NCBI GenBank assembly: GCA_020152595.1 | Contig: JAIGNY010002032.1 | Location: 124,001-188,000, forward strand | DNA length: 64,000 nucleotides | Source: Chiridota heheva | Lineage: Eukaryota > Echinodermata > Holothuroidea > Apodida > Chiridotidae | Direction: 5' to 3' | Shown here: piece after piece, positions 1,878-33,059 of the stretch | Layout: each line of letters opens with the position of its first letter | How positions within the stretch are numbered: position 1 is the stretch's first letter | Notes under the pieces: model-generated | Database searches by the model: none | Told to the model about the DNA's origin: nothing | The model's input: only the letters and a program-made list of their open reading frames with translations | Translations under genes and position numbers: made by a program

Positions 1878-3187
1878 TTCTGGGTTCCCTCACCTCTTGC
1901 TGATTCCTTCACCTCTTGCTGGTTCCCTCACCTCTTGCTGGTTCCCTCACCTCTTGCTGGTTCCCTCACTTCTTGCTGGTTCCCTCACCTCTTGCTGGTT
2001 CCCTCACCTCTTGCTGGTTCCCTCACCTCTTGCTGGTTCCCTTACCTCTTGCTGGTTCCCTCACTTTTTGCTGGATCCCTCACTTCCAGCTGGTTCCCTC
2101 ACCTCTTGGTGGTTCCCTCACCTCTTGGTGGTTCCCTCACTTCTTACTGGTTCCCTCACCTCTTGGTGGTTCCCTCACCTCTTGGTGGTTCCCTCACCTC
2201 TCGCTGGTTTCCTCACCTCTTGCTATATCCCTACTTATCCCTCACTTCCCAGCTGGTTCCCTCACCTCTTGGTTCCTCACCTCTTGGTTCCCTCACCTCT
2301 TGGTGGTTCCCTCACCTCTCGCTGGTTTCCTCACCTCTTGCTATATCCCTCACTTCCAGCTGGTTCCCTCACCTCTTGGTGGTTCCCTCACCTCTTACTG
2401 GTTCCCTCACTTCTTGCTGGTTCCCTCACCTCTTGGTGGTTCCCTCACCTCTTGGTGGTTCCCTCACCTCTCGCTGGTTTCCTCACCTCTTGCTATATCC
2501 CTCACTTCCAGCTGGTTCCCTCACCTCTTGGTGGTTCCCTCACCTCTTCCTGGTTCCCTCACCTCTTGCTGGTTCCCTCACCTCTAGTTTGTTCCCTCAC
2601 CTCTAGTTGGTTCCCTCACCTCTTGGTGGTTCCCTCACCTCTAGTTGATTCCTTCACCCCTAGTTGGTTCCCTCACCTCTAGTTGGTTCCCTCACATCTT
2701 GCTGGTTCCCTCACCTCTTGCTGGTTCCCTCACCTTTTCCTGGTTCCCTCACCTCTTGGTGATTCCCTCACCTCTTGCTGGTTCCCTCACCTCTTACTGG
2801 GTCCCTCACCTCTTGCTGGTTTCCCTCACCTCTTGCTGGTTCCCTCACCTCTTGCTGGTTCCCTCACCTCTTGCTGGTTCCCTCACCTCTTTCTGGCTCC
2901 CTCACCTCTTGCTGGTTCCCTCATCTCTTGCTGGTTCCCTCACCTCTTGCTATTTCCCTCACCTCTTGCTATTTCCCTCACCTCTTGCTGGTTCCCTCAC
3001 CTCTTGCTGGTTCCCTCACCTCTTGCTGGTTCCCTCACCTCTTGCTGGTTCGCTCACCTCTTGCTGGTTCCCTCACCTCTTGCAGGTTCCCTCACCTCTT
3101 GCTGGTTCCCTCACCTCTTGCTGGTTCCCTCGCCTCTTGCTGGTTCGTTCACCTCTTGCTGGTTCCCTCACCTCTTGCAGGTTCCCT
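1878..3187. repeat. 19-bp minisatellite (about 69 units)
   Basis: The unit is ttccctcacctcttgctgg with many single-base variants. Because 19 is not a multiple of three and the unit has no stop on this strand, all three plus frames stay open for 140-300 codons with a 19-residue peptide period. These are repeat artefacts, not genes. A higher-order period is visible: the block containing gctggtttcctcac followed by the ctatatccctcacttccagc variant recurs at 2,321 and 2,473, which is 152 bp or eight units. The right edge runs directly into the end of a MITE. Confidence 0.97.
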
Positions 3188-3448: not shown

Positions 3449-5223
3449 GGCCTGTGGGGGCATCTCCATTCTCATTGGACACAATATCCCACACAGCCCT
3501 ATTCATGTGAACACCGACCTTTAGGCCATCTGTATCTGTATCTCCCTCCACAAAATCTTCACTTGTTGCAATATCTATCTCCCCCAATGCCAACGTTCAG
3601 CCAAGCAGCCTTAACAACCTCATCTCTTAGCTCCCCTCCCCCTTTCATCCTTCTCGGTGATTTCAATGCCCACAATCCCCTGTGGGGCTCCAATACCACC
3701 ACTCCCAGAGGCAAACTCCCATATCTCCTGAGATCTTAATCTTCTCACCGGGAAAAAGGATATTGCTAACCGCCTTGCCACCTCTTTCAGCAACATCTTG
3801 TCCTCAGCCAACTACTCCAATGCTTCAAAGCCAAAAAAGCTCGCGATGAAACCTGGAGTGTTACCTTTCCTTCCAACAACGCCGAGAGCTACAACACCCC
3901 TCTCACCCTATCTGAATTCAAAGCAAGCCATCCATGATGCTGGCTGCACCTCCAAGGGCCCAGATAACATCCCCTACCAGTTCCTGAAACACCTTCCCAA
4001 CAAGGCTACTGCTACCCTTCTCGCCATCCTCAACCACAGTTGGTCCTCACACTCCTTTCCCCTATCTGGAGGACAGCTATCATCACAAACCACCCTCATG
4101 TGCTGTCTTTGTAAAATTATGGAAAGAATCATTAACCAGAGACTTACAGTAACTGGTTTCTTGAGACCAACAGAATCTTCTCCCCTCACCAAAGTGGCTT
4201 CTGGAAATGTCGCAATACCTTGGACCAGTTAATCATGATCGACACCATCATCCGGGAATCCTTTGCAAAAAAAGAACACCTCATTGCCATCTTTTTCGAC
4301 CTCGAGAAAGCTTTCGACACTACTTGGAAATACGGTATTACCCGCAAGCTTCACATCATTGGCCTCGGAGGCCACCTCAACATCTTTATTCAAAACTTCC
4401 TCTCACCCAGGCAGTTCCAATTTCTTTTTGGCCACACCCTCCCCAACCCCTACCCCCAAGAAGAGGGCGTCCTCCAAGGCAGCAATCTGAGCATTAACAA
4501 CATCGCAGACCCAACATCAATTGTGCTCTCTACCTAGACGACTTCACCATCTTCTACTCCTCTCCTAGCTTTTCTCTCCTCGAAAATAGGCTCCAACTTA
4601 ACCTCAACCAGCTGCAAGACTGCTGTAACAATAATGGTTTTAAATTCTCCAAAGATAAGACAGCTTGCATGCACTTCTGTCATTCAACAACCTCCACCCC
4701 AACCTGAACCTCATGATCAATGGCAATCCCATCCATAAAGTTGACCACACTAAGTTCCTGGGTCTAACCCTAGACCCCAAGCTCTCATACAAGCAAGAAA
4801 TCACCAACCTGAAACAGAAATGCAACAGTTTCCTCAACCTTCTCCGCCTCCTCTCCAACACCACTTGGGGCGCGGACCCCCATGCTCTTCTTAAAATCTT
4901 CAAGCTCACAATTCGTGCCAAGCTTGACTGCAGCAATACTGTCTACGTTCCACTCACAACTCTTACCTTAACCACATCAACACCATCCAAAATAAAGCCC
5001 TCAGGCTTTCCCCTGGTGCCTACAGGACCACCCCCATCACCAGCCTTCACATTGAAGCCAACGAACCCCCTTTCTGCTAGGGTGTAGAAAGCGTAGCCTT
5101 TCCTACGCGTTTAGAGCTCTCACCAACACCCAAAACCTTTTCTACAACCTAATTAGGTATTCCAATTTCTCCACCCTATCCTTCCTTCAGTTTACGCATC
5201 AAACCCAACCCCCACCATCTCGG
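3449..5223 (+). mobile_element. I-like non-LTR retrotransposon, copy A: endonuclease and reverse transcriptase (broken)
   Basis: Conceptual translation in shifting plus frames gives a partial ORF2. The endonuclease region (ACGGISILIGHN at 3,450, then GDFNAHNPLWGS at 3,656-3,691) is followed by the RT with GPDNIPYQFLKHL (about 3,957), FFDLEKAFDTTWKYGI (about 4,293) and the catalytic-type YLDDF box at 4,531-4,545. The thumb region FLGLTLDPKLSY lies near 4,757. At least four frameshifts and several stops make it dead. The RNase H segment present in copies B and C is absent: the sequence jumps from the 'cagtttacgcatcaaaccc' region (about 5,190) straight to the 23-bp array. RNase H in the sister copies argues for the I group rather than CR1/L2. 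The exact clade is uncertain. Confidence 0.85.
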
Positions 5224-5225
5224 CA

Positions 5226-5733
5226 AACCTCATAGAACTCCCATGGCAAACCTCATGGGACTCCCATGGCAAACCTCATGGGACTCCCATGGCAAACCTC
5301 ATGGGACTCCCATGGCAAACTTTATGGGACTGCCAAACCCATGGGACTCCCATGGCAAACCTCATGGGACTCCCATGGCAAACCTCATGGGACTCCCATG
5401 GCAAACCTCATGGGACTCCCATGGCAAACCTCATGGGACTCCCATGGCAAACCTCATGGGACTCCCATGGCAAACCTCATGGGACTGGCAAACCTCATGG
5501 GACTGGCAAACCTCATGGGACTCCCATGGCAAACTTCATGGGACTCCATGGCAAATTCATGGGACTCCATGGCAAACCTCATGAGACTTCCATGGCAAAC
5601 CTCATGGGACTTCCCATGGCAAACCTCATGGGACTCCCATGGCAAACCTCATGGGACTCCCATGGCAAACCTCATGGGACTCCCATGGCAAACCTCATGG
5701 GACTCCCATGGCAAACCTCATGGGACTCCCAAA
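5226..5733 (+). repeat. 23-bp minisatellite inside I-like copy A (about 22 units)
   Basis: The unit starts tggcaaacctcatggg and ends ctccca. In I-like copy C (about 32,380-32,402) and copy B (about 20,896) the same stretch occurs once, inside ORF2 codons for WQTSWDS/WQTLWNF. After the last unit the retrotransposon sequence resumes with aaattgttaacaaactcc, as in the other copies. The array is therefore a local amplification of transposon coding sequence. A few units are truncated ('gggactggcaaacc' at 5,480-5,515). A 23-bp period opens all plus frames, so the 113-231 codon ORFs here are artefacts. Confidence 0.95.
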
Positions 5734-6276
5734 TTGTTAACAAACTCCATGACATCCAGCCCACTATTCTGACTAAACCCACCATCCACAATCTCTCCCA
5801 TATCAATAACATCCACATTACCCGCCTTAGAATAGGTCACATCCACCTCACTCACTCCCACCTCCTTGCTGGCTCCCCCACCCCTCTGCAACCATTGCCA
5901 TATCCCCCTCACAGTCCACCATGTCCTCCTTGCCCGCCCCCTTTACAACCCCCCAGAGCTTCCCTCACCCTGGCAACTCCATAGCTGAGCTTTTCCAGAA
6001 AAAAACCCAGATAAAGTTATCTCCTTTCTTCATCATGCCTCCCTCTATAACCATATTTAGTCCTCCTCTCCCACCCTCCTCTACTTACTTTTACCTCTTT
6101 TTTTACACTCCTGCACTTCCTCCTTCGATCCCAGCTTCCTGGCTCTTAGCCCCCATACTTCTCTCAGACTCCTCCTATTTTCTGTTCTTCCTACCTCTGG
6201 AATGATCTTACTTCTCAGGCACAATTTGACCCATTGCTGTTGTGGTGCTGTTAAGCCCTCATTAAGCAAACAAACT
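5734..6276 (+). mobile_element. I-like copy A, C-terminal and 3' end
   Basis: This continues the element after the minisatellite. Codons for TRLRIGH and LTHSHLLAGSP lead into a cysteine-rich C-terminal segment, then a pyrimidine-rich 3' region. It ends in the family's 3' signature 'ttaagccctcattaagcaaacaaac', a short (CAAA)n-type tail. The same region is seen in copies B (20,950-21,461) and C (32,430-32,943). Confidence 0.85.
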
Positions 6277-6909
6277 AGTACTTATTTTCAGATGTGTAGT
6301 GTTTAATTTAAATGAGATCAAAGATTATAGTGGTATTGAAGTAAACATTTGATAGATTATTCTGAAAACTCTTAAACAAGTAAGCAGAGGAAATAATAAA
6401 TCCTTGACAGATTTTAATACAACTTACGCCAACATGTGTCTTTATTTTAAAGAAGTATATGGTGATGAAGTATGCACAGGTTAGCCTGAAACCATCTCTT
6501 TTCATAATTTTTTTGTAATGACAATCATGGGCAAAGGTCTTTACCCTTTCCCCCCTCCCATCCCCTATGCCCCCCACCCCTACCCCCCTTTTCCCCGCCA
6601 TTTTACTCCACTTCACTGTTGGGAGTAAAAATTTGCCTGCAGCAGTGACTTTCAACATTGAGATGTGGTTGAATGGGTAAAGTAAAAGGGCTGAGAACTT
6701 TTGTCCATGATTGTGGTTGAATGAAAGGAGTATAATGTACCTCACTGAAGGCAGACAACCTCCATGTTTGCTGAAAAGTCTTCACCTTCAATCCATCCCT
6801 TTTGGAGAAGTTCTAACTCAACATAAACAAACTGTATTTAAGGAACTTAAAGTGATGCAGAAGCTGCTAATGTTGTTTTTCACATAATTCTTCGCAATAT
6901 TATATTTTG
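6277..6909. other. non-coding spacer
   Basis: No supported gene. There is a C-rich patch at about 6,545-6,600. The minus-strand open frame of 145 codons (6,308-6,745) crosses that patch, has no domain I recognise and no splice context, and is not annotated. Confidence 0.4.
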
Positions 6910-7490
6910 GGGTTATTCATTGATATTTGAGGGTTATTTATTGAAATTTGATAGTTATTTATTTAAATTGAGGGGTTATTCAAATTTGAGGGTTATTCAT
7001 TGAAATTTGAGGGTTATTCATTGAAATTTGAGGGTCATTTATTGAAATTTGATAGGTATTTATTGAAATTTGATAGGTATTCATTGAAATTTGAGGGTTA
7101 TTCATTCAAATTTGAGGGTAATTCATTCAAATTTGAGGGTAAATCATTCAAACTTGAGGTTATTCATTCAAATATGAAGGTAATTTATTCAAATGTGAGG
7201 GTTATTAATTCAAATTTGAGGGTTATTCATTCAAATTTGAGGGTTTATTCAAATTTGAGGTTATTCATTAAAATTTGAGGGTTATTTATTCAAATTTGAG
7301 GGTTATCTATTATAATTTGAGGGTTACTCATTAAAAAAATAAGGGTTATTCATTCAAGTTTAAAGGTTATTCATTGAAATTTGAGGGTTATTGATTTAAA
7401 TTTGAGGGTTATTCATTGAAATTTGAGGGTTATTTATTCAAATTAAAGGGTTTTTCATTTCAAATTTGAGGGTTATTCATTTCAAATTTG
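6910..7490. repeat. 21-bp minisatellite, AT-rich (about 28 degenerate units)
   Basis: The unit is close to gggttattcattcaaattt plus ga, with frequent variants (caaattt/gaaattt, cattga/tattga). The plus ORF at 7,000-7,278 is a seven-residue KFEGYSL-type repeat produced by the 21-bp period and is not a gene. Confidence 0.95.
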
Positions 7491-7494
7491 AAAC

Positions 7495-15374: not shown

Positions 15375-16483
15375 CTGAAATAAAGAAAATAATGAGGCAA
15401 AATACTGAATGATTTATCATCTTTACAGTATGTACAAATTCTGTGCTCACAGAGTGGTAAGAGTTTAGTAATGGCCAGAAACTTAGCCTATTTATCATAT
15501 GATTTACTAAAATGAAAACTACTGCAAAATCTTTTGTACAAATGATTACACAGATGAAATGATCACAAATGATTATAGAGTATCTCTGAGCAAATGCTGT
15601 ACAAACATGAAAATTGATAACTTGTAAATGGCTTTTGCAGTTAAAATGCATTGCTAGCTTACAGTAATAACAGTTAATATTGACAATTTAAACACAATAA
15701 GATGGCCAGGGATTCAAATGCACAAGTTCACACAAGAGAGCCTTCCTTCGAATGATAAATCTGAAATGCAACAGCATTTTAATAAAGTGCTTTTTAATTA
15801 TACACTTTTTTTTCCAATTCACTGCTATTTTCCCACACTTTTTTGTAAATATGATTAAGACCCACATGATAAAATTTAAACAAATTATCCTGGTGGGAAA
15901 AATTGGGAGGAGCTTTAGAAGCAGGTTCACTCACGAAAAATAATCAGGCTCATGAACTTCCTAGGGGAATGATGTAATCTTATAAATTATTAAAGAATCT
16001 TTAGTGTAATCTTATGGCTCCCATGCAGTATTCCCGGCTACAGAAACATTAAAGTCGCATGCGGTTCAGCATTGTACTAATCTTAATAAAAGAACGATGC
16101 ATATTCATGTTGAAAGAACTTATTATGTATGTCCAAACTATGGCATATGCTTGCCGGCTGGGCAGCAAAGTTGCAAGGCCACCAGCTGTACTAAACTAGC
16201 TTAAATATAAAACGATGTATATTTTTTATGTATTATGATAAGAGTAAATGGAGCATGACACAAAAAGTACAGCCTGATACTATTTAACTACGCCTCTCTA
16301 TCATTTTGAACCTAAAGTGATTATTCTTATGCCATGAAGTGCAGTGACACATCATAGAAAGATGATATGCAAATTCTTTCAACAATTTTAAAATGAGAGC
16401 CAAAATATTGCATGCAAAAAAAAAATGCGTAGCAAAAAAAAAAGGGTAGGCCAGGCCTACATCTATTTCCTATTGTGTATTAA
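15375..16483. other. intron-like AT-rich DNA
   Basis: No further exon could be placed confidently. An open segment near 15,680-15,760 (minus; FIIRRKALLCELVHLNPW) has a good acceptor but a poor donor and the wrong phase for its neighbours. Confidence 0.4.
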
Positions 16484-17292
16484 ATCTCTCTCTCTCTCTT
16501 GGTGCCAAGTCTGGAACAGACATTGGCGATCATGGCCCTCCAGTCACTTCTGTTTTGCGCTAAATGCATAAACTCATTGTTACTTAGGCTCTTGTTGGCT
16601 GCCCAGTTGTTTAAGCTTTGGACATATTTAACTCTCTGCCTTTCTCTGCTTCTTTTGCCCTCAATTTGCCCACATACTGCAAGCTGTTCCAACCCACTCT
16701 CCCGATAAACATGCCTGAAAAATTCCATCTTTCTCCTTCTGATGGCATTGTGTAGGGACCTGTCCATGCCTGAAGCTATCAGGACATCATTTGTTTTCTT
16801 TTCTGTCCAAGATATTTTCAACATTTTCCTAATGAACCACATTCCCTGTAGCTTCTAATCTTTTCTTGATGTCACTGGTAATTGTCCAGCATTCACAGCC
16901 ATAGAGAAGAGTAGACCATACATATGCCTTCAAGACACAAACTTTTGTGTCCATTCCAATATTTCTATTCTTCAGATTTGGATTAGTTTTTGTAAACATG
17001 TCTTTGGCAATTGCAATGCATTTTCTAACTTTGTTAATATACCGACTATCTGATGTTAGTGTGTAGCCCAAGTACCCAAACTGTTGTACTTGTTTAATTA
17101 TTTCTCTTTTGCTTCGTATACTACATAATGGGTTTATGGCTTTTTTTTAAACCACCATACATTCTGTTTTCTTTACATTTAGAGACAGCCCTCTCTTTTC
17201 ACTTTCCTCTACAACTTTATCCAGAAGAGGCTGCAGTTTTTCTTCTGACTCTACTATAAGTACCATTTCATCTGCATAGCATATTGAATTAA
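16484..17292 (-). mobile_element. RTE-like fragment, second copy (RT palm to 3' end)
   Basis: Minus translation gives ICYADEMVLIVESEEKLQ (17,285-17,230; the second catalytic aspartate is replaced by glutamate), NVKKTECMVV, VLKAYVWSTLLYGCECWTI (about 16,940) and the C-terminal SDWRAMIANVCSRLGTK. It is nearly colinear with 10,143-11,055. The 3' end is a (TC)n/(GA)n microsatellite at 16,484-16,499. It may be the 3' part of the element whose 5' part lies at 18,190-22,060, with about 0.9 kb of other DNA between. Confidence 0.85.
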
Positions 17293-18189
17293 TGTAGGCT
17301 AAATGAAAATAAATTAGGGGAAATTTCTTTTGCCTTAGCCTGCACAAACTTCTGAGCCACATTACATGTACTACCGTGCATCACAACTGTAGTAATTTTT
17401 AAAAGAATCTTGCATTTGATCACTTCAATTATTTTAGGCCTAGGCCTAGAATGGGTCCAAATTTGTTTTTTTCCCTAGTTAGGCCCAAGGCCTATACTAG
17501 CACACTAACTTGACGAAGTTAGCACTGCATTATTAACATCAGTAGGGCCTTTCATTAGTATCACTTTCTTGGCCTTCAATTTTGAATCTTATTTCTACTA
17601 TTTTAAGACTCAATTATTCAACAATATCCAAACGTTTTTCAATATAACGCTGGGTAAAAAGTAGTTGCCATGGAAACAACCTGAAAAACTGACCAAAAAG
17701 TGCCCCAAAAGAGTGATTTTCTTGATTGGACAACATTGCACACATACAAGCGCTGTCAGAAGTGCATAAAGAAAGGTAGACAAGTCAACTTGACCCAGCG
17801 TCATTTGCAGGAATCTGCAGAAAATAACCCAAAAAATACAATTTAGGCAAGCTATTTTCCCAAATTGGCTTAAGTTAGTAACCATAAATGTCACCAATAA
17901 TATCAAGATAACTTTCAGTACTTTTGTAACGACTTGCTCTACAACTGCACATGACTTTTATTGAGAAACTACGGCAAAATACACACTGCGCAGCGTATAA
18001 CCTAAGGCACAGGTCACTTTAAAATAACCAGAGTATAGTAATAACGTCATTTGCTGGCTTGCTCTAGTGCTCTCAGCGGCTACACACATTGTTGGAAAGG
18101 GACTTTTATGGGGCCCATGGGATGTGGGTGTTGAGTGAATCTGCAGAGGAATAAGTTAGAGCTGTGTAGGGTTTTTTTGTTGGTGTTTC
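17293..18189. other. non-RTE DNA between two RTE pieces
   Basis: This separates two minus-strand RTE segments that are in the correct order to be one element. It contains a candidate host exon (17,748-17,814), so the two RTE pieces may instead be independent insertions. I see no terminal repeats. Confidence 0.4.
17748..17814 (-). CDS. possible upstream exon of the minus-strand gene
   Basis: A strong acceptor ('gggttattttctgcag') precedes A + 22 codons, with donor GCGCTT|gtatgtg. The 67-bp exon ends in phase 0, which fits the exon at 15,374. It encodes FLQMTLGQVDLSTFLYALLTAL and contains an ATG that could be the start. Against it: one phase agreement is weak evidence, the intron would be 2.4 kb with an RTE piece in it, and the exon lies between RTE fragments. 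Confidence 0.35.
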
Positions 18190-18652
18190 TTTCCTGGAGG
18201 CTACGCTTTACGACTGTCAGCTCTCCATGTGTGGAAGCTCTTTGGTTTCACTGTTAATGTTGAAAAGATCTGGTGACAAAACACACCCCTGCCTGACCTC
18301 ATCGAATTACCTTAAATTCACTGTAATCTCCTTCAAGTCTTATTGCTGCTTCCTGGTCCCATTATAGGTTTCTTATCACTCTTAGGTCTTTCCCGTCAAT
18401 GTTCAAATTGCTGAGTATTTTAAAGAGATCTTCACGTTGACTTTGTCAAAGGCTTTGGAGTAATCAATGAAACATAAATATAAATCTTTCTGTACTTCTA
18501 TGCACCTTTACATGATCATTGATAATGTAAATATTGCATTCCTACTAGGCATTCCTTGCCTTTGTCTACAACCAAACCAAGTTGTGTTTCTGAAATTTCT
18601 GGTCAGATACTATTTTTCATCCTATTGTTCATTAGAACATGAAGCAAGACCG
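18190..18652 (-). mobile_element. RTE-like element, middle RT domain
   Basis: On the minus strand, from the edge of the minisatellite down, codons read SHITTVLLHVLMNN, then (with frameshifts) a GLVVDKG-type segment, LYLCFIDYSKAFDKV (about 18,475-18,430) and VRQGCVLSPDLFNINSE (about 18,300-18,250). These are successive RT blocks. The reading continues from the right side of the array at 19,773, so the array interrupts one RT domain. Confidence 0.85.
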
Positions 18653-19772
18653 TGGTGATATGGCTCATCAAGCTAATGGTCCTCCCTGGTGATATGGCTC
18701 ATCAAGCTAATGGTCCTCCTTGGTGATATGGCTCATCAAGGTAATGGTCCTCCTTGGTGATATGGCTCATCAAGCTAATGGTCCTCCTTGGTGATATGGC
18801 TCATCAAGCTAATGGTCCTCCTTGGTGATATGGCTTATCAAGCTAATGGTCCTCCTTGGTGATATGGCTCATCAAGGTAATGGTCCTCCTTGGTGATATG
18901 GCTCATCAAGCTAATGGTCCTCCTTGGTGATATGGCTCATCAAGCTAATGGTCCTCCTTGGTGATATGGCTTATCAAGCTAATGGTCCTCCTTGGTGATA
19001 TGGCTCATCAAGCTAATGGTCCTCCTTGGTGATATGGCTCATCAAGCTAATGGTCCTCTTCGGTGATATGGCTCATCAAGCTAATGGTCCTCCCTGGTGA
19101 TATGGCTCATCAAGCTAATGGTCCTCCTTGGTGATATGGCTCATCAAGCTAATGGTCCTCTTCGGTGATATGGCTCATCAAGCTAATGGTCCTCCTTGGT
19201 GATATGGCTCATCAAGCTAATGGTCCTCTTTGGTGATATGACTCATCAAGCTAATGGTCCTCCTTGGTGATATGGCTCATCAAGCCAATGGTCTTTCCTG
19301 GTGATATGGCTCATCAAGCCAATGGTCCTCCTTGGTGATATGGCTCATCAAGCCAATGGTCCTCCTTGGTGATATGGCTCATCAAGTCAATGGTCCTCCT
19401 TGGTGATATGGCTCATCAAGCTAATGGTCCTCCTTGGTGATATGTCTCATCAAGCTAATGGTCCTCCTTGGTGATATGGCTCATCAAGCTAATGGTCCTC
19501 CTTGGTGATATGGCTCATCAAGCTAATGGTCCTCCTTGGTGGTATGGCTCATCAAGCTAATGGTCCTCCTTGGTGATATGGCTCATCAAGCTAATGGTCC
19601 TCCTTGGTGATATGGCTCATTAAGCTAATGGTCCTCCTTGGTGATATGGCTCATCAAGCTAATGATCCTCCTTGGTGATATGGCTCATCAAGCTAATGGT
19701 CCTCCTTGGTGATATGGCTCATCAAGCTAATGGTCCTTCTTGGTGATATGGCTCATCAAGCTAATAGTCCTG
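18653..19772 (-). repeat. 34-bp minisatellite inside an RTE reverse-transcriptase domain (33 units)
   Basis: The unit starts tggtgatatggctcatcaag and ends ctaatggtcctcct. 18,653 and 19,741 are exactly 32 periods apart. On the minus strand one unit reads RTISLMSHITK. RT codons ending ECKPHRTISLMSHIT enter the array from 19,773 upwards and RT codons SHITTVLLHVL leave it below 18,653. The array is thus an expansion of a conserved RT block, not an insertion of foreign sequence. 34 is not a multiple of three, so the frame is lost inside. Unit variation is low (mainly ctcctt/ctcttc/ctccct), which suggests recent or homogenised growth. Confidence 0.96.
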
Positions 19773-19855
19773 TGTGGTTTGCATTCTGCTACACCTGTTT
19801 TCTTGGGTAAGGTTATGAAGATAGATTTGCTTATGGCTGGTGGTATAGCACTTCC
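19773..19855 (-). mobile_element. RTE-like element, RT block before the minisatellite
   Basis: Minus translation gives AIPPAISKSIFITLPKKTG then VAECKPHRTISLMSHIT, a conserved RTE RT block. Upstream on the minus strand it is cut by the I-like insertion whose 5' truncation point lies near 19,856. Confidence 0.85.
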
Positions 19856-21461
19856 TGGAAACTAAAATGCAATAGCTCCCTCAACATCCTCCGACTGCTC
19901 TCCAACACTACTTGGGGAGCGAACCGCTATGCTCTCCTCAAAATTTTCAGGCTCACCATTCGTGCCAAGCTTGACTATGGCAATATTGTTTACTGTGTCG
20001 CTCACAACTCATACCTCAACCACATTAACACCATCCAAAATAAGCCCTCAGGCTTTGTCTAGGAGCCTACAGGACCTCCCCAATCACTAGCCTTCATGTT
20101 GAAGCCAACGAACCCCCCTTTCTACTTAGATGTAAAAAGCTTAGCCTCTCCTATGCTTTTAGAGTCCTCACCAACACCCAGAACCCTGTTTACAACCTCA
20201 TTAGGTACCCCAATTTCTCCTCCCTCTTTGATAGGACTAAAACCCTATCGCCCCCTTCAGCTTACGCATTAAATCAGACCTCTTTCAACTTGGCATCAAC
20301 CCGCCCACTCGGCACCTATTCCTGGCCCACTTTTCCGCCTTGGGCCACCCCTTCCTTCTGTCCACCTAGACCTCCACTTATATCAAAACTCAAACTCACC
20401 CTAATCTCTTCATCAATCTCCACAACCAAATCAAAGACCAACTCTCAAATTACACCTCCATCTATACTGATGGCTCCAAGGAAGGCAACAAGACAGCTGC
20501 TGCTGCCATCATCCAAGACATCACCCTCAGTAGCAGACTTCCTGACCACTCATCCATCTTTTCAGCCGAGGCTAAGGCCATTCTCCTCGCCCTCAACTTT
20601 ATTGAGTACTCTCCTCTTAGTCACTTTGCCATTTTCTCTGACTCAAAGGCTGTTCTTACTTCATTACTCAATCTTAAATGGGATAACCTCACCTGCCACC
20701 TCCTCCTCCGAAACTCTTTTCTCCCACCCTCTGCAGGAAAAGTGTTCTTTTCTTCTGGATACCCAGCCATGTTGGCATCCCTGGCAATGACAGGGCTGAT
20801 ACAGCCGCTAAGCTTGCCCTTAACCTCCTCCCTTCCCCTTTCCCAAAACCTCTCTGACATCAAACCGCTTATCGCTTCTCTTGTTCGTGACCGCTGGCAA
20901 ACCTTATGGAACTTCCAAATTGATAACAAACTCCATGTTATCCAGCCCACAATCCCGATCAAATCCACCATCAACAACCTTTCTCGATCGACAACGCTCA
21001 TATTACCCGCCTTAGAATTGGTCACACCCACCTCACTCACTCCCACCTCCTTATTGGTTCCCCCAACCCCTCTGTAACAATTGCCACTGCATCCTTACAA
21101 TCCAACACGTTCTCCTTGCTTGCCCCTGTACAACCTTCCCAGAGCTTCTCTCGCTCCCCACAACTCAATTGCTGAGTTCTTCCAAAAATCCTCCAGATAA
21201 AATAGTCTCCTTCCTTCAGCATGCATCCTCTACAACCATATTTAATCCTCCTCTTCCACCCCCTCTCTACTTTGTTTTTAGTTTTACCCATGCACCTCCT
21301 CTCTCGATCACAGCTTTCTGGCTTTTGTTCTTGAATTTCTCTCATTCTTCCCCTGGTCTCTCTCCTTACTACCTCTAAAATGATCTGACCTCTCAGGCAC
21401 AATTTGACCTTCGTTGTCGTGGTGCCGTTAAGACCTCATCAAACAAACAAACAAACATATA
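19856..21461 (+). mobile_element. I-like non-LTR retrotransposon, copy B (5'-truncated: RT thumb, RNase H, C-terminus)
   Basis: It begins in the RT thumb (KCNSSLNILRLLSNTTWG), continues to an RNase H domain with TDGSKEGNKTAAAAIIQD (20,466), FSAEAKAILLAL (about 20,560), FSDSKAVLTSLL (about 20,635) and IPSHVGIPGNDRADTAAK (about 20,760). The D-E-D-D residues are all present. The C-terminal region has TRLRIGHTHLTHSHLLIGS and a cysteine motif. The 3' end is 'gttaagacctcatcaaacaaa' with a (CAAA)n tail at 21,437-21,459. Frameshifts and stops inactivate it. It is inserted in the minus-strand RTE element: RTE codons stop at GIETI on one side and resume at SGSAIPPAISKS on the other. Confidence 0.88.
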
Positions 21462-22060
21462 GTTTCAATGCCTACATCATCAAGAGCCTCAAAAACTTCA
21501 ATTGGCATTTTGTCAGGTCCTGATGCTGTGCCATGTTTCATGTTACTGGTGGCTCTTTGCACTTCCTCCTTTAGTATTGGTGGGCTCTCCATCTTCTTTT
21601 TTATGGTAGATTTTTCTCGTCTGTTATCATCAAAGAGTGTTTTGATGTATTCTGACCATTGGTGTAGGATGTCCTCTTTGTCCAGGAGGATGGTACCACC
21701 TTTTGATTTAATGCAACCTGTATGTGTACATGTGCGTTTTCCTGTTAGTTCTCTGACTTTATCATGCATGTATTTACTGTTTATGTTACGTGCATTCTCA
21801 ATTTCTTTGCACTCTTGATTGATCCAGGTTTCTTTGGACTCATTACATTTTGTTCTTTATTACTCTGTTTGTTTCATGATATCTTTCATCATCATCCTTT
21901 GCTAACCTTCTTGTTTCCATTAAGTCCAGGAGGGTCATCTACTTTTTGTGATCCTTCTTTGCCTATTTTGGAATCTGCTCACGCATTGCTTCTGTAGCTG
22001 GATCTTTCATTTTTTGCCACATTTCATCAGCCTCAGAATAATGCTGCCAATTTGGTTGTT
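21462..22060 (-). mobile_element. RTE-like element, region between endonuclease and RT
   Basis: Minus translation gives YSEADEMWQKMKDPATEAM (about 22,045), MTLLDLMETRRLAKDDDERY (about 21,930), MHDKVRELTGKRTCTHTGC (21,769), ILHQWSEYIKTLFDDNR and MKHGTASGPDKMPIEVFEAL, then GIETI next to the I-like tail. These are the linker and first RT block of the same RTE element as 18,190-19,855. No endonuclease domain remains. Confidence 0.85.
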
Positions 22061-31566: not shown

Positions 31567-31624
31567 CACAGAAATATTAGCTTGCTGCATGCTTGCAACA
31601 AGCTAACATTCAAACATTAATCAA
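31567..31624. repeat. AGCTTG-type palindromic repeat, left flank of I-like copy C
   Basis: 'ttagcttgctgcatgcttgc' and 'aacaagctaac' match the palindromic family seen at 36,835-37,080 and 52,596-52,990. The other half of the block is at 32,945-32,985, so the retrotransposon appears to have landed inside it. Confidence 0.65.
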
Positions 31625-32943
31625 AGCTTAGCCTCTCCTATGCTTTTAGAGTCCTCACCAACCTGTTTACAACCTCATAAGGTACTCAAATTTTCCACCC
31701 TCTTTGATAGGACTAAAACCCCATCCCCTCCCTTCAGCTTACGCATTAAATCAGACCTCTTCCATTTCAGCATCAACCCCGCCACTCTTGGCACCATCTC
31801 CTGGCCCACTTTTCCTCCCTGGGCCACCCCTTCCCTTCTATCAACCTGGGCCTCTCCACTCATCACAAAAGCAAAACCCACCCTAACCTCTTTATCAACC
31901 TCCACAACCAAATCAAAGACCAACTCTCAAACTACACCTGCATCAATACTGATGGCTCCATGGAAGGCGACAAGACAGCTGCTGCTGCCATCATCCAAGA
32001 CATCACCCTCAGTAGCAAGCTTCCTGACTACTCGTCCATCTTCTCGGCTGAGGCCAGGACCATTCTCCTCACCCTTAAATTTATGAAGTACTCCCCGCTC
32101 AGCCACTTTGCCATCTTCTCCGACTCTAAGGCTGTCCTTACTTCTTTACTCATTCTTAAATGGGAGAACCCCACATCTCACCTCCTCCTCCGTAATCTCC
32201 TTTTGGCCAACTTCTGCAGGAAAGTATTCTTTTCTTCTGGATAGCCAGCCATGTTGGCATTCCTGGCAATGATAGGGCTGATGCAGCTGCTAAGCTTACC
32301 CTCAACCTCCCTCTACCCCATTTCCCAAAACCCTTTCTGACATCAAACCGCTTATCGCTTCCCTTGTTTGTGACCGCTGGCAAACCTCATGGGACTCCCA
32401 AATTGGTAAGAAACTCCACGTCATCCAGCCCACCATTCCGATCAAACCCACCTTCCAAAACCTCTCCCGTGTTGACAACATTACTGTATAAGAATAGGTC
32501 ACACCCACCTCACTCACTCCCACCTCCTTATTGGCTCCCCCCAACCCCTCTGCAACAATTGCCATTGCACCCTCACAGTCCATCACGTTCTTCTTGCTTG
32601 CCCCCTGTACATCCTTCCCAGAGCTTCCCTCACTCCCCACAACTCAATAGCCGGCTCTTCCAGAAAAACCCTCGGGATAAAATGATCTCCTTCCTTCATC
32701 ATGCTTTCCTCTACAACCATATTTAGTCCTTCTCTCCCACCCCCTCTCTCTACTTTTTTTTTCTTTTTCCCATCGCCGCACCTCTATCGATCCCAGCTTT
32801 CTGGCTTTTAGTTCTCGTATTTCTCTCAATCTCCCCCTGTTTTCTTTCCTCCTTACCTCTGTAATGATCTTACCTCTCAGGCACAATTTGACCCTTGCTG
32901 TTGTTGTGCCATTAAGCCCTCATCAAACAAACAAACAAACAAA
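31625..32943 (+). mobile_element. I-like non-LTR retrotransposon, copy C (5'-truncated: RNase H to 3' end)
   Basis: It starts 'aagcttagcctctcctatgc', equal to about 20,139 in copy B. The RNase H domain shows TDGSMEGDKTAAAAIIQD (31,948), FSAEARTILLTLKF and FSDSKAVLTSLL (about 32,118), then the IPSHVGIPGNDRAD region with a frameshift (about 32,240). It contains a single copy of the sequence that is amplified 22 times in copy A ('tggcaaacctcatggg' at about 32,380). The C-terminal region and 3' end match copies A and B, ending in 'cctcatcaaacaaacaaac' and a (CAAA)n tail to 32,943. Confidence 0.88.
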
Positions 32944-33059
32944 CTTCAATGCTGCGAGCTTGCAGTAATCTTGCGCAAGCTAAAAATAAAAATCCTGTAT
33001 TGCTTCTTGGGGAATGTATACCATCCTATTGGATTTGGTGGTCATAGAATGAATAAAAT
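32944..33059. repeat. AGCTTGC palindromic repeat, right flank of I-like copy C
   Basis: 'gcgagcttgcagtaatcttg' followed by 'cgcaagctaaaa' (to about 32,987) continues the block seen at 31,567. The rest of the interval is unremarkable. Confidence 0.6.

Follow-up and report, generated by a model that had tools for sequence, protein, structure and literature searches.

A 34-bp minisatellite that appears to have arisen in place within a decayed LINE reverse transcriptase copy

The window analysed here, which is the whole stretch of DNA of 64 kb, carries on its minus strand, from 19771 to 18650, an array of 33 complete 34-bp units (unit AGGACCATTAGCTTGATGAGCCATATCACCAAGG). We conclude from comparison with related sequences in the same 1.1-Gb assembly, with a probability of roughly 0.93, that this minisatellite originated on the spot, within a single dead copy of a non-LTR (LINE) element. 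The birth of a minisatellite from a known starting sequence is seldom seen. In this case many sister copies still show the block in its ancestral single state, which reveals the exact duplicated segment and its boundaries, and some of the later growth is legible too.

The array and the LINE copy that carries it

When phased on its flanks, the array spans 1,122 bp of head-to-tail units with no indels, and it begins and ends with full units, leaving no partial terminal unit. The original prediction had placed 33 units at 18653..19772; the number of units stood, and the ends were corrected to 18650 and 19771. Tandem Repeats Finder delimited the array at 18653-19771, with a period of 34, 32.9 copies, 96% matches and 0% indels. 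We observed 16 distinct unit types with a mean pairwise identity of 95.4%, in keeping with the earlier remark that the units are still very alike. Compared with the commonest unit, the array shows 27 mismatches in 1,122 bases (2.4%), comprising 23 transitions and 4 transversions. A chance model for the whole array was judged needless, given that all 33 units keep register and are 95% identical. Mis-assembly is frequent in tandem arrays, but a collapsed or falsely stitched repeat is very unlikely here in view of the 16 unit variants and of family sequence on both flanks, even if the unit count could still be off.

Stops close each of the three minus-strand frames within three units of the commonest type, and a period of 34 is not divisible by three. 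Protein selection was therefore not the cause of the array, as had been argued from the period. We see no function of the array itself. Its unit has an ordinary predicted fold (z = -0.43), as have the dimers of both strands (z = 0.23 and -0.86), with no sign of an unusual DNA structure, and expansion driven by hairpins finds no support in these values. A degenerate pattern of the block gave no match in viral contigs, and nothing was found in an Rfam scan and a tRNA scan of the 64-kb window.

The array lies in one decayed copy of a LINE reverse transcriptase (RT). We aligned eight 3-kb family copies and a longer one, L090, all from the same 1.1-Gb assembly, with the minus strand of the window. 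Matches run in pieces from 22036 to 16482, at approximately 77-95% identity outside the array, with each family copy covering parts only. The 5' part of the array-bearing copy occupies 21458..22036 on the minus strand. It is separated from the rest by a fragment of another LINE nested on the plus strand (19847..21457), in which we detected an RNase H domain (Pfam RNase_H, E = 3.2e-5, 24.5 bits, just below the 25.8-bit cut-off). Only 75 bp of RT coding DNA are left between this fragment and the array (minus strand, 19772..19846; translation SKSIFITLPKKTG...H, supported by the family alignment). Directly downstream of the array, the minus strand continues as RT coding DNA that has decayed through stops and frame changes (18245..18649, from translation and family alignment). 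A stretch of approximately 960 bp (17284..18244) then follows, which found no match in the eight 3-kb copies or in L090. The 3' part of the LINE copy lies beyond it on the minus strand, at 16482..17283 by family alignment, and the piece 17150-17380 matches RVT_1 with E = 6.2e-8. The RT copy is thus interrupted three times, by the nested plus-strand LINE, by the array and by the ~960-bp stretch.

The family retains an open version of the coding sequence that is broken in the window. An ORF of 276 aa in L090 (L090:1327-2154) matches RVT_1 with E = 2e-31. It aligns with LINE-1 ORF2p at residues 52-273 (E = 6e-21) and with an R2 protein over 38-251 (E = 6e-14), the structures being PDB 8sxt and 9nl3 (LINE-1 ORF2p and R2 RTs). 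With an RVT_1 domain related to LINE RTs in both the L090 ORF and the window piece 17150-17380, we assign the family as a non-LTR RT, LINE-1 ORF2p and R2 being its nearest relatives of solved structure only. The original prediction put it more narrowly in a putative RTE clade, whose members group together in RT trees and have an APE endonuclease upstream. Translation of the flanks gave SKSIFITLPKKTGVAECKPHRTISLMSHITK before the array, and SHITTVLLHVLMNNRMKNSI followed by FIDYSKAFDKV after it. These protein pieces align to the single 276-aa ORF with 27/36, 21/26 and 21/23 identities, confirming the proposal that the two flanks belong to one RT domain. Within this ORF, HRTISLMSHITKVLLRVL is ordinary RT sequence, and the block is included in the alignment to LINE-1 ORF2p.

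One block in the sister copies

We searched the assembly for the 34-bp unit and found it at 288 places with no more than 3 mismatches, of which 33 come from the array; counts for large families are lower bounds. Among 100 listed matches, 14 fall in the array and 86 outside it, and we read 69 of these 86 places (67 loci), while 17 were not fetched. Two rows of locus L083 were left out of the 69 because they repeat locus L004. The two loci together (G000:C231:1260900-1262600) hold two RT blocks 599 bp apart with similar flanks, and may represent a partial duplication or a nested pair of the same LINE. In another region (L090 and L091, G000:C2539:204000-219900), three LINE places are spaced approximately 5,847 bp apart and have a 180-bp context in common, a pattern suggestive of tandem repetition of a 5.8-kb segment that would hold this RT together with another ORF, LINE-like as judged by eye.

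In all 69 places read outside the array, the block is non-tandem and always occupies one position within the family sequence, although these places were found through the block itself and the sample favours copies that keep it. ACAC stands immediately before the block in 61 of the 69 places and TCTTG immediately after it in 60, and both are exact in 54, in accordance with the expectation that other copies would show the 34-bp block once at this point. The commonest unit of the array is identical to the family block, and each of the 33 units differs from the block by at most 3 mismatches. We also searched for the junction between units (36 nt, no more than 3 mismatches). This gave at least 31 matches, all of which lie within the array and its 32 junctions, and no tandem junction was found at a second locus of the 1.1-Gb assembly at that threshold.

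The presence of one block elsewhere and of the junction only in the array shows that LINE coding DNA was amplified where it stood, at this one locus, with the reservation that the counts are lower bounds. The claim of the original prediction to this effect held up. The array has the properties of a minisatellite derived from a transposable element (TE), since tandem units of minisatellite length lie in a TE and resemble it over at least one period, 31 of 31 junction matches belong to one locus, and the relatives (69 of 69 places read, chosen by the block) have one block each. Satellite DNA, in contrast, forms long arrays at several or many loci, and we found one locus of 1,122 bp.

Internal tandem repeats do occur in some TE families, and the array could have been present in a mobile element and spread with it by transposition, as proposed for the internal repeats of human LTR12 (PMC3389668). 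The lack of a second tandem-junction locus in this assembly at up to 3 mismatches and the 69 of 69 places with no tandem block make such an origin highly improbable. The chance that the array moved from another locus and happened to land in the RT gene is practically negligible. No evidence in its favour was found, the unit is just what the RT sequence of the family has at that point, the flanks continue the RT sequence, and the comparison with empty sites contradicts such a landing.

Founder duplication and later growth

The single-block copies give the ancestral order as ACAC/AGGACC...CCAAGG/TCTTG, where slashes mark the ends of the duplicated segment of 34 bp. At the founder boundaries (AC/AGGACC...CCAAGG/TC), exact microhomology is 0 bp on both sides, as expected if a staggered break had been filled in and end-joined. 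Staggered-break fill-in is linked with tandem duplication. We therefore propose, as a first step, that a single 34-bp stretch of the RT would have been duplicated head to tail after the LINE had inserted, and that this founder duplication may have formed by staggered-break fill-in and end-joining.

Alternatively, the founder could stem from short direct repeats that flank the block, through recombination or slipped-strand mispairing between them (the model of Haber and Louis, as given in PMC3389668). Family copies with a single block do have the trinucleotide AGG at each end of these 34 bp, and 34 can be read as 31 plus a second AGG. However, the two AGG are offset, slippage on them alone would produce a period of 31, and the microhomology at the actual boundary is 0 bp. 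Direct repeats of 5 bp or more were not seen at the block ends in single-copy relatives, while PMC3389668 gives a size of 5-20 bp for the model. We consider a founder of this kind unlikely. An origin in two steps, with 31-bp slippage on AGG followed by a gain of 3 bp, is possible.

Following the founder duplication, growth from two units may have proceeded by slippage, unequal exchange or gene conversion, sometimes with several units added together, and part of this second step can be seen in the order of the units. Units 24-27 and units 28-31 are identical as 4-unit blocks, including two variants, an arrangement matched by 90 of 20,000 shuffles of unit order; this test was picked after the variants had been seen, and lag 4 is not below other lags in mean distance. 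Units 12-15 have in common a G at position 10 that is absent from all other units. Both observations are compatible with local duplications that involved from one to several units, and growth of the array probably included duplication of a 4-unit block. A check for higher-order periodicity showed no prominent lag in the mean distance between units (lag 4, 1.52; lag 1, 1.38; lag 22, 1.09), and only the repeated 4-unit block stood out by eye.

The units are less diverged than the sequence around them. Relative to the commonest unit, which is the family block, divergence is 2.4% (27/1122), compared with 6.0% (28/466) for the window flanks relative to the local majority; other family copies differ from the local majority by a median of 4.7% (range 0.6-48.5%). 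This suggests that growth or homogenisation of the array took place after much of the decay of the LINE copy, and the comparison fits either process. As a third step, continued turnover or late growth may thus have kept the units more alike than their flanks.

Known tandem repeats and a second array in the window

TE-derived minisatellites are well known, and the array is a well-documented addition to that kind. Ahmed and Liang (2012; PMC3389668) counted 7,276 TE-derived minisatellites among 31,472 in the human genome. They use a truncated terminal unit and a flanking direct repeat as the two signs of known mechanisms, and report that 6,817 of the 7,276 lack both an incomplete last unit and direct repeats of 5-20 bp at the flanks. 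The array resembles the human TE-derived minisatellites described there in its TE-derived units of more than 20 bp, in the single locus that most of them occupy and in local growth, and it resembles most of them in lacking both an incomplete terminal unit and 5-20-bp flanking repeats. Most unexplained human arrays in that study have only two units, whereas the array has 33 and lies in RT-encoding sequence of a LINE, in a genome of 1.1 Gb. Satellite DNAs with monomers derived from LINEs have also been described, including HinfI and CR1, PROsat and L1 ORF2, and Pvc20 and L1 ORF2 (PMC9659126). The monomer of the array likewise comes from LINE coding sequence but, unlike those LINE ORF2 satellites as presented in that source, the array occupies one locus and 1.1 kb. 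No earlier description of it was met in the literature surveyed by subject. The array is a clean example of a known route of tandem-repeat birth, and is of mild interest for how the first duplication started.

The window also contains, on the plus strand, a 23-bp array of approximately 23 copies (5222..5731; unit TGGCAAACCTCATGGGACTCCCA, a piece of the RNase H LINE), which lies inside another copy of that LINE (4811-6275). The 23-bp block has 7,541 matches in the assembly at no more than 2 mismatches, counting those inside the array. It is single in the nested copy of the window (19847-21457), in the copy at 31623-32952, and in all 30 loci fetched for the RNase H LINE family. On its 3' side, the array-bearing copy continues as in the family, while its 5' side lacks approximately 600-670 bp of the element, which makes the founder of this array less clear. 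On the assumption that the block was duplicated as such, microhomology at its boundary would again be zero.

In both TE-derived arrays recognised in the window, the ends of the repeated block have zero microhomology with the family flanks, with the caveat that the 23-bp copy has lost its own 5' flank. This leads us to a broader suggestion, offered tentatively and with the odds against it, that minisatellites in this genome commonly start as short end-joining duplications at staggered breaks, without microhomology, and that dead high-copy LINEs preserve the sequence as it was before duplication. If the end-joining reading is true, a genome-wide comparison of arrays with their single-block paralogues could settle how minisatellites are initiated, and the present case suggests LINE families as a natural assay for this. 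Ahmed and Liang left initiation open for most human TE-derived arrays (PMC3389668), and the 34-bp array fits that class.

Sixteen listed tandem arrays, with periods of 4 to 155 bp, fill 9,187 bases (14.4%) of the 64-kb window, indicating that array growth is general here and not special to the RT LINE. When arrays of the window were compared with the fetched loci, matches to fetched LINE copies came from the 34-bp and 23-bp units alone. The flanks to the right of the arrays at 1883-3187 and 6906-7491 recur elsewhere in the window, which marks them as dispersed repeats. One fetched locus of the RNase H LINE (L114) contains a 33/66-bp array at 638-950, whose unit matched no other fetched locus. 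The same locus carries a 15-bp array of 2.9 copies (1353-1395) with a unit that matches 23 other fetched loci, and this may be a third case, on a small scale, of tandem growth in the RNase H LINE.
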